NCBI GenBank assembly: GCA_013177825.1
Contig: JABLXX010000006.1
Location: 62,001-126,000 of the forward strand
Reading direction: 5' to 3'
Origin: Syntrophaceae bacterium
GTDB lineage: Bacteria > Desulfobacterota > Syntrophia > Syntrophales > PHBD01
Length of the DNA stretch: 64,000 nt
Part shown: positions 14,010 to 17,106 of the stretch, piece after piece
Layout: every line of letters begins with the position of its first letter
Position numbering within the stretch: the first letter of the stretch is position 1
Position numbers and translations under genes: made by a program
The notes under the pieces: model-generated
The model's database searches: none
Told to the model about the DNA's origin: nothing
The model's input: only the letters and a program-made list of their open reading frames with translations

Positions 14010-15620
14010 TTAGGCCGGCGCGGTTTCCCGCCGCTTGTGATTCTTGTTGAGCCGATCCTTGCTCAGTTTGTACTGCATACTGTCCACGAGGGCATACCAG
14101 CTGGCCTCGATAACGTTCTCCGAAACGCCGATGGTGCTCCAGGCCTCTTTTTCATCGGCCGACTCGATCATGACCTTGACCACCGCCGCCGTTCCCTCGC
14201 TCGCCTCGACGATGCGAACCTTGAAATCCGTCAGGTGCATCCCCTCGATCTCGGGATAGAATTTCGCCAGGGCCTTCCGGAGGGCATGATCCAGGGCATT
14301 GATGGGACCGTTTCCCTCGGCAGCCGTCAGTTCCTCCTCGTCGCCCACGGAGATTTTGATCGTCGCCAGTGCGGTGGAGGGATGGTGCGCCGTCTTCACG
14401 ACCGCCACATTGAAACACTCCAGGACGAAGGGCTCGGTGAACTCGCCGGTGGCCTTCCGGATCAGGAGCGAGAGGGACCCGTCGGCGGCGTCGAACTGGT
14501 ACCCCTTGTCTTCCATTTGTTTGATCTGCTTGACGATGCTCTTGCTCACCGTGCCGTCTTTTCCAAGATCGATGCCCAGTTCCCGGGCCTTGTATTCGAT
14601 GTTGCTCCGGCCGGCCATGTCGGAAACGAGGACCCGCTGGTGGTTCCCCACCGCCTCGGGCCGGATGTGCTCGTAGGCCTCCGCATTCTTCAGGATCGCA
14701 TTGACATGGATCCCTCCCTTGTGGGCGAAGGCGCTCCGGCCCGTGAACGGCATGGAGTTCTGGGGCGGTACGTTGGCCACGTCGCTCACGTACAGGGAAA
14801 GGTTCGTCATCTGCCGGAGGGCCGATTCGGAAAAGCAGCGCCGGCGCATCTTGAGCTGAAGATTGCAGACGGAAGCGACCAGGTCGGCATTGCCGCATCG
14901 TTCGCCGAAACCGTTGACCGTCCCCTGGATCATCTTCGCCCCGGCCTGGACAGCGGCGAGCGTGTTGGCCACCCCGACGCCCCCGTCGTTATGGGCGTGG
15001 ATGCCCAGCTTCGCCTTGGGCAGGGCCTCTCCGACCTTCCGGACGATCTCTGTCACCTCGTGGGGCAGGGTGCCTCCATTGGTGTCGCAGAGGACAATCA
15101 TGTCGGCTCCCGCCTCAAAAGCCGCCTGCAAGGTCTGCAGGGCATAGTCGCCGTTCCGCTTGAACCCGTCGAAAAAATGCTCCGCATCGTAGACGACCTC
15201 GCGGCCCCTGTCCTTGAGAAAGGCCACGGAATCCCGGATCATCACCAGGTTTTCCTCCAGTGTCGTACCCAGGATTTCCGTGACATGGAGGTCCCAGGAC
15301 TTGCCGAAAATGGTCGCCACCGGCGTCTGGGCATCCAGGATGGCTTTCAGGTTCTCGCAGGACTCCGGGCGAATGCCCGGCCGACGGGTGCTGCCGAAGG
15401 CAGCCAGCCGGGCATGCTTCAGGGCGGCGTTTTTTGCCAGCTCGAAGAACCGTACGTCTTTCGGGTTCGATCCCGGCCATCCCCCTTCGATGTAGTGGAA
15501 CCCCAAGTCATCGAGTCGATGAGCGATCCGGAGCTTGTCCTCCGCCGTGAAGTTGATCATCTCCCCCTGAGCTCCGTCCCGGAGGGTCGTGTCGTAGACC
15601 AGGATATCGGTTTTTGTCAT
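14010..15620 (-). CDS. cimA: (R)-citramalate synthase
   Basis: 536 residues, normal for the long CimA family. It condenses acetyl-CoA with pyruvate to citramalate, the entry step of threonine-independent isoleucine synthesis. The N-terminal HMGL-like TIM barrel opens with ILVYDTTLRDGAQGE. YIEGGWPGSNPKD is the CimA-type replacement for the LeuA/homocitrate motif. HNDGGVGVANTLAAVQAGA holds metal-binding His residues. The C-terminal ~140 residues form the LeuA-type allosteric domain, expected to bind isoleucine. A GAGAGGTG ribosome site precedes the ATG. Only 17 nt separate the gene from an intrinsic terminator preceded by an Ile-rich leader peptide, so expression is probably attenuated by charged tRNA-Ile. 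Confidence 0.95.
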   Translation of the reverse strand: MTKTDILVYDTTLRDGAQGEMINFTAEDKLRIAHRLDDLGFHYIEGGWPGSNPKDVRFFELAKNAALKHARLAAFGSTRRPGIRPESCENLKAILDAQTPVATIFGKSWDLHVTEILGTTLEENLVMIRDSVAFLKDRGREVVYDAEHFFDGFKRNGDYALQTLQAAFEAGADMIVLCDTNGGTLPHEVTEIVRKVGEALPKAKLGIHAHNDGGVGVANTLAAVQAGAKMIQGTVNGFGERCGNADLVASVCNLQLKMRRRCFSESALRQMTNLSLYVSDVANVPPQNSMPFTGRSAFAHKGGIHVNAILKNAEAYEHIRPEAVGNHQRVLVSDMAGRSNIEYKARELGIDLGKDGTVSKSIVKQIKQMEDKGYQFDAADGSLSLLIRKATGEFTEPFVLECFNVAVVKTAHHPSTALATIKISVGDEEELTAAEGNGPINALDHALRKALAKFYPEIEGMHLTDFKVRIVEASEGTAAVVKVMIESADEKEAWSTIGVSENVIEASWYALVDSMQYKLSKDRLNKNHKRRETAPA

Positions 15621-15637: not shown

Positions 15638-15676
15638 AAAAAAAAATCCGTTACCAGGGGTGGCCTGATAACGGAT
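15638..15676 (-). terminator. Attenuator terminator (3:4 hairpin) in the cimA leader
   Basis: In the minus-strand RNA, ATCCGTTATCAGG (15676-15664), a 5-nt loop and CCTGGTAACGGAT (15658-15646) form a 13-bp stem with one G-U pair. It is followed at once by nine U residues (to 15638). It lies 17 nt before the cimA start codon and downstream of the leader peptide, so it can only be a premature terminator of cimA. Confidence 0.88.
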
Positions 15677-15738
15677 GGTTGTTTCGCTCTTCGATGTCCG
15701 GCGGGACTATCCCCCTATCAGGCCTCCTATGTCAGGAG
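15662..15738 (-). promoter_or_regulatory. Alternative antiterminator (2:3) and protector (1:2) pairing of the cimA leader
   Basis: In the RNA, GGCCTGATA (15724-15716) inside the end of the leader ORF is perfectly complementary to TATCAGGCC (15670-15662) in the terminator's 5' arm, so the two structures exclude each other. Upstream, CTCCT (15738-15734) pairs with AGGAG (15728-15724), forming a 1:2 hairpin that competes with 2:3. The arrangement of segments 1 to 4 relative to the leader stop codon matches classical amino-acid attenuators. Confidence 0.75.
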
Positions 15739-15787
15739 TCCTAATTATGCCGCTGATAATAATGATGGTAGAAATCCGGCCGGTCAT
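15707..15787 (-). CDS. Isoleucine-rich attenuator leader peptide of cimA
   Basis: A 26-residue ORF (start 15787, stop TAG 15709-15707) with nine isoleucine codons. They include four in a row (residues 8-11: ATC ATT ATT ATC), a pair at 14-15 (ATA ATT), and singles at 5, 20 and 24. It has one Leu and no Val. It begins MTGRISTIIIISGIIR and ends GGLIGG. A purine-rich AAGAGAG precedes the ATG. A ribosome stalled at codons 8-15 would cover segment 1 and free segment 2 to block the terminator; one that reaches the stop would cover segment 2 and allow termination. Codon choice points to Ile-specific sensing, matching the downstream enzyme's pathway. Confidence 0.85.
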   Translation of the reverse strand: MTGRISTIIIISGIIRTPDIGGLIGG

Positions 15788-15833
15788 TGCTCTCTTGCGC
15801 TCTCTCCGTCTTGATGAAACCAATGGAAGCCGC

Positions 15834-15862
15834 TGTATATTTGCTTTAGCCGTCCTTGTCAA
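15834..15862 (-). promoter_or_regulatory. Sigma-70 promoter of the cimA leader
   Basis: On the minus strand, a perfect TTGACA (15862-15857), a 17-bp spacer and TATACA (15839-15834). The -35 box overlaps the last codons of the upstream 102-residue protein gene. Predicted transcription start is near 15827, about 40 nt before the leader peptide ATG, giving a leader of roughly 190 nt to the terminator. Confidence 0.75.
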
Positions 15863-16798: not shown

Positions 16799-17106
16799 GC
16801 AGCTCCTCCAGGGGTCAAGTCCTGCAGGAGCATCTTCTCCTGCCTGGACGGATCGTTCAAGCAGGAGTCATCAGCCCCGGGGGCTGTTTTTGGTGAACTC
16901 CATCACCGTGTTCACCTTTGAGCGAAGGCATGCCGCCTTGTCAAGGGGGACCTGGGGGCAGACAGGTCCATCGACAAAGGGAACAAATTTGTAATTATTC
17001 CCTTTTCCGCATGATTCGGACGCCGCGCGACGGTGAATCCGTTGCGTTGAAAGCGGCCTTTCTGATATGGAAGAATCCGGCTTCAGGAAGACCAACGGGA
17101 GAGACC
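16799..17106. other. Divergent intergenic region before purSL (no gene seen)
   Basis: 308 bp between the small minus-strand gene and purSL. It contains several short inverted repeats: CAGGAG/CTCCTG near 16830, CAGCCC/GGGCTG with a T5 tract (16872-16891), GGTGAAC/GTTCACC (16892-16916), GGACCTG/CAGGTCC (16948-16969) and AAAGGGAA/TTCCCTTT (16976-17005). The last lies in the AT-rich patch where a purSL promoter would be expected. No riboswitch fold was recognised. Confidence 0.5.
16872..16891 (+). terminator. Terminator-like hairpin on the plus strand, no gene upstream
   Basis: CAGCCC, a 3-nt loop, GGGCTG and then TTTTT. No plus-strand gene precedes it, so it is either fortuitous, or the 3' end of a small RNA antisense to the 53-residue ORF. 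Confidence 0.35.

Follow-up and report, generated by a model that had tools for sequence, protein, structure and literature searches.

The classical enteric attenuators are those of the trp, his, leu, ilvGMEDA (ilvL) and ilvBN (ivbL) operons. The candidate attenuator described here, located upstream of the citramalate synthase gene cimA, resembles them in several respects: control codons lie within a leader peptide, the 2:3 helix and the 3:4 helix exclude one another, as would a putative 1:2 hairpin and 2:3, the terminator has a U run, and the stop codon is positioned beside segment 2. However, whereas the known ilv leaders carry mixed Ile, Val and Leu codons before ilv genes, here the control codons are for Ile only and stand before cimA, ilvB or ilvA. 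The ilvB leaders of Actinobacteria (PMC1262725) similarly place a short branched-chain leader, with terminator and antiterminator, before an acetolactate synthase gene, but their codons overlap the terminator and they are not found on cimA. In the Corynebacterium ilvBNC operon (PMC11857589), the leader codons are a mixture of Ile, Val and Leu (C. glutamicum, MTIIRLVVVTARRLP), in contrast to the Ile-only cimA leader. Finally, the ilv-leu operon of S. aureus is reported to have a leucine-rich attenuator peptide (PMC5794164), which likewise attenuates branched-chain synthesis, but does so with leucine codons, in a Gram-positive organism, and beneath a CodY layer that responds to Ile. Most of the known cases of classical attenuation come from Gammaproteobacteria, Alphaproteobacteria and Actinobacteria and concern a handful of operons (PMC1262725, PMC2965389). 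The open-access literature that we searched contained no report of an attenuator on cimA. The proteobacterial attenuator survey of Vitreschak et al. from 2004 is not known to include one for this gene. While the mechanism is a textbook one, its target, its clade and its retunable specificity appear to be new.

An isoleucine codon-rich leader upstream of cimA

The locus is located on the minus strand of the window, meaning the whole 64-kb stretch of DNA that was analysed. An initial annotation had noticed in it the parts of an isoleucine-specific attenuator; this observation was confirmed, and the extent of its conservation turned out to have been underestimated. A promoter-like sequence is indeed present at 15862-15834, consisting of TTGACA (15862-15857), a 17-nt spacer and TATACA (15839-15834), and transcription would be expected to start near 15827 from the predicted promoter position. 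The leader ORF (15787-15707; MTGRISTIIIISGIIRTPDIGGLIGG) is preceded by a weak Shine-Dalgarno sequence (AGAGAG) and comprises 26 codons, of which nine encode Ile (I5, I8-I11, I14, I15, I20 and I24), including four consecutive codons, as the initial annotation had stated. Two groups act as putative control codons, I8-I11 (15766-15755) and I14-I15 (15748-15743). There are no Val codons, and the single Leu codon sits inside segment 2.

The four pairing segments follow in close succession. Segment 1 (15745-15733), the 5′ arm of the 1:2 hairpin, begins within Ile codon 15 and overlaps the next codons. Segment 2 (15729-15712) pairs with segment 1 through 15729-15717 and with segment 3 (15676-15662) through 15724-15712. 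The 1:2 hairpin exists as proposed, but the 5 bp originally seen are only the inner part of a 12-bp structure (15745-15740 with 15722-15717 plus 15738-15733 with 15729-15724), which in the window outscored all 200 shuffles in a per-sequence fold test. Likewise, the 2:3 antiterminator is present but extends beyond the 9 bp first reported, reaching 12 of 13 pairs (15724-15712 with 15674-15662; duplex energy -23.0 kcal/mol). The predicted intrinsic terminator required no such revision: its 3:4 stem contains 13 bp (15676-15664 with segment 4, 15658-15646) and is followed by T residues reaching 15638, so that segment 4 and the U run together occupy 15658-15638, and it is the strongest terminator within the 64-kb stretch. 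The stop codon of the leader (15709-15707) lies 3 nt beyond the end of segment 2 (15712), a placement that suits a finishing ribosome covering segment 2, as had been suggested. The whole-leader fold has a z score of -3.1.

The putative controlled gene, cimA (14010-15620), begins with an ATG at 15620, 17 nt past the U run as noted earlier, and its product is identified as (R)-citramalate synthase by a score of 733.6 bits with TIGR00977, for which the cut-off is 450. Assignment as LeuA was rejected, with leuA models scoring under their cut-offs. The closest CimA proteins among named records belong to Deltaproteobacteria/Desulfobacteria MAGs. Beyond cimA on the minus strand are genes for L-threonylcarbamoyladenylate synthase (13919-13311) and then RNase E/G (13297-11336), and a small ORF (16154-15846) is located upstream of the attenuator on the same strand. 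Further upstream, also on the minus strand, the window contains a fluoride riboswitch aptamer (RF01734, 53.4 bits, 16855-16916), for which the nearest same-strand downstream ORF of at least 80 aa encodes a DUF1232 protein (16546-16151) and no evident fluoride exporter.

Conservation, covariation and codon content across the order

We collected cimA orthologs from 149 genomes of the order and read their upstream regions with an automated test that called for a minimum of 4 Ile codons, an Ile content of 15% or more and a terminator no more than 75 nt from the leader stop. In total 89 of 107 regions passed, drawn from 17 families and representing 37 of 40 genera, as compared to 1 of 83 regions taken 400 nt further upstream, 1 of 107 reverse complements and no shuffled sequences; in most of the failures a leader can be seen but its terminator is imperfect. 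A covariance model of the element, R1, was run on 155 genomes of the class, which contains a single order among the genomes searched, and 134 of them gave a hit. A same-genus genome retains TTGACA and TATAGA upstream of its leader, and promoter-like pairs scoring at least 9/12 were located upstream of 57 of 93 leaders in the order versus 5% of shuffles. The leader is eroded or lost in a small number of relatives (L104, L109 and L127 in f13/g39; L112 in f10/g24), so the predicted attenuator control of cimA is not universal in the order. In L104 (G100) and L109 (G051) just 2-3 Ile codons are left, L127 (G097) is also eroded or lost, and L112 (G026) has no Ile leader but retains the terminator and, a short way upstream of it, a promoter-like TTGACA box. 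Six other loci (L132, L135, L137, L153, L192 and L193) have a gap of roughly 100-260 nt between terminator and cimA, where about 20 nt is usual, filled with inserted or repeat-like sequence. Upstream regions of cimA in Firmicutes, Omnitrophota and other phyla revealed no such leader; the single automated match outside, L066, was set aside because it looks like the 3′ end of a gene for aspartate kinase (named by eye).

The initial annotation had expected relatives to share an Ile-rich leader together with covarying 2:3 and 3:4 stems, and on this point the result was strongly positive. Within an alignment of 57 sequences compared with 500 shuffles, 91.8% of cells were paired in the 2:3 helix, which showed 35 compensatory double changes (6.3 in shuffles), and 92.3% in the 3:4 helix, which showed 58 (9.9 in shuffles); no shuffle of the 500 reached either count, and both signals were abolished when the columns were shifted by one to three. 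For example, in family f14 the pairing CCUGAU:AUCAGG has become CCUGGU:GCCAGG, with a matching change in segment 4. Individually, the duplexes were better than shuffles at p <= 0.05 in 98% of sequences for 2:3 and in 100% for 3:4. The helix 1:2, whose loop could not be aligned, was paired in 66.5% of cells, equal to the shuffled value, and when species were taken one by one it outdid shuffles in only 30% of them. At the level of sequence, the candidate attenuator has all the features that define such attenuators, save that 1:2 gained no independent support.

The coding content of the leaders is similarly constrained. Upstream of segment 2, 36.6% of the codons read in frame are Ile, as compared to 2.6% and 1.6% in the other frames, and across 93 leaders the Ile codons peak 20-26 nt before segment 2. 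Among leaders in that register, the positions at -26 and -23 nt encode Ile in 95% and 98% of cases. These conserved positions use ATT, ATC and ATA freely; retention of Ile through all three synonyms indicates that the meaning of the codon is conserved and not merely the sequence. Upstream of segment 2, leaders that are not linked to leuA contain on average 7.5 Ile, 0.44 Leu and 0.25 Val codons. Codon choice in the leaders is itself distinctive, as AUA and AUU account for 545 of 763 Ile codons across the order, while AUC accounts for 137 of 161 in genes of the window. AUA alone comprises 236 of 763 Ile codons in leaders versus 3 of 161 in nearby genes; such rare codons may sharpen stalling, or may reflect pairing and base composition.

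Predicted switching and competing explanations

Equilibrium folds of the window's leader RNA are consistent with a switch. RNA from segment 1 onward adopts 1:2 and 3:4 together (-40.9 kcal/mol), masking of segment 1 makes 2:3 the best fold (-30.1 kcal/mol, versus -28.2 kcal/mol with 3:4 forced), and when only RNA past the stop codon is free, 3:4 alone forms. The parts, their conservation, the 2:3 and 3:4 covariation, the frame-specific Ile enrichment and this energetic switch were all established by computation, and from them we infer promoter activity, leader translation, stalling, termination, a response to isoleucine and the co-transcriptional timing. In the proposed mechanism, transcription would begin near 15827 and a ribosome would translate the leader behind the polymerase. 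When charged tRNA-Ile is plentiful, the ribosome would reach the stop codon and cover segment 2, permitting the 3:4 terminator to form at 15676-15638; if the ribosome had left or had never loaded, 1:2 would form and 3:4 would again be left free. When tRNA-Ile is uncharged, the ribosome would stall at the Ile codons, above all I14-I15, and hide segment 1, such that segment 2 would already have paired with segment 3 by the time segment 4 emerged, and transcription would read through into cimA. The initial annotation had envisaged effective stalling anywhere from codon 8 to codon 15. If a ribosome is taken to extend about 15 nt ahead of its A site, shielding of segment 1 is expected at I14-I15, but stalling at codons 8-9 would probably leave the ribosome short of it. 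On this assumption I14-I15, which are also the most conserved Ile codons, would be the decisive pair.

Several other explanations could be considered for such a leader. The peptide itself, rather than tRNA charging, might cause stalling when free isoleucine or some other signal is present, and the alike peptide ends of many species (GLIMV, GLVVE, GLIGG) would agree with such nascent-peptide arrest. However, that end is encoded by segment 2, and its conservation is thus explained by RNA pairing; outside the Ile codons the peptide varies, Ile runs occur at several distances from segment 2, and in operons for Leu or Val synthesis the codons for these amino acids are added to those for Ile or take their place, as codon sensing predicts. 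We therefore regard arrest as very unlikely. It is also highly unlikely that the terminator is a constitutive, partial one accompanied by an incidental ORF whose Ile codons simply provide an AU-rich spacer. The leaders are indeed AU-richer than genes, with AUA and AUU far commoner than in nearby genes, but base composition would not confine Ile enrichment to one frame (36.6% versus about 2%) and retain Ile via all three synonyms, nor would such a terminator call for a covarying 2:3 helix that competes with it.

Two further alternatives retain a response to branched-chain amino acids or their tRNAs. Related leaders in other classes hold Ile, Leu and Val codons, as would be expected of an attenuator answering to Ile together with Val or Leu. 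Yet the window's leader contains nine Ile codons, no Val and a lone Leu within segment 2, and the order-wide means per leader are dominated by Ile (8.2 Ile, 1.3 Leu, 1.1 Val), making a mixed response here very improbable. Direct sensing of tRNA-Ile by a T-box or another RNA has precedent in Gram-positive bacteria, where branched-chain genes are under T-box control. Nevertheless the leader is short and coding, a T-box covariance model gave no match to it, and an Rfam search at gathering and permissive thresholds (E up to 10) returned only one chance-level sRNA hit at the leader, so that a sensor of this kind is extremely improbable. Taken together, the aggregate data argue with high confidence for an Ile-specific, ribosome-mediated transcription attenuator of cimA.

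Control codons and operon content in the wider family

A search of the window's genome with R1, which recovers related sequences only, revealed a second Ile leader (L229, G000:C1:318000-322400; E = 3.6e-10) before a gene identified as ilvB by TIGR00118 (744 bits). Its peptide is MRRNVIGIIGIIIIPIHMGAG, and its 14-bp 2:3 antiterminator differs in sequence from that of cimA. A further association was found in G021, the only one of 149 genomes of the order with ilvA at E <= 1e-60: no cimA ortholog was found in it, and the gene behind its Ile leader is ilvA, although it is one genome, 89% complete, with a weak 2:3 duplex. In members of the order with leuA no more than about 50 nt behind cimA, the leader contains Leu codons, mostly as LL. 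Indeed, Leu codons upstream of segment 2 average 2.8 in the leuA-followed group versus 0.44 otherwise (Mann-Whitney p = 2e-6, a value that overstates independence since the group is a single family). When leuA is more than 260 nt from cimA (G018, f2/g22) the leader stays Ile-only. Elsewhere in the phylum, cimA-leuA-leuC operons show Ile codons followed by long Leu runs, cimA-ilvD-ilvB and ilvD-ilvB operons show Ile, Val and Leu codons, and a leuA leader is rich in Val and Leu. The initial proposal that tRNA-Ile alone is sensed thus fits the window and the members of the order without a directly following leuA, but does not extend to cimA leaders generally; the Ile-only character is, judging from codon content, a trait of the order's single-gene cimA and ilvB units.

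Because they share the terminator core CCGUUAUCAG, the leaders of the phylum seem to be related by descent, which the comparison suggests over convergence. The pairings of codon and operon, in which Ile goes with cimA, ilvB and ilvA, Ile and Leu with cimA-leuA-leuC, and Ile, Val and Leu with ilvD-ilvB, raise the tentative and rather doubtful idea of one phylum-wide attenuator family whose control codons have repeatedly been rewritten to match the operon, such that a leader would predict gene function. Two Ile-rich leaders of the same family, from two distant families of organisms, are positioned before acyl-CoA dehydrogenase genes (L278, G091:C29:94500-99900, near 99538-99686; L277, G456:C70:4700-10000), each followed by etfB- and etfA-like genes (named by eye), and no branched-chain biosynthetic gene was recognised at either locus. 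If the idea of rewritten codons were true, these acyl-CoA dehydrogenase-etfB-etfA leaders would mark an unrecognised isoleucine-related step.

Apparently the citramalate route is the order's only such route to isoleucine, since 148 of the 149 genomes gave no ilvA at E <= 1e-60, and the predicted attenuation would govern its committed step. The wider family offers a natural series in which control codons track operon content. This series is of use for following the evolution of attenuator specificity, and the leaders may similarly help in annotating the genes located behind them.
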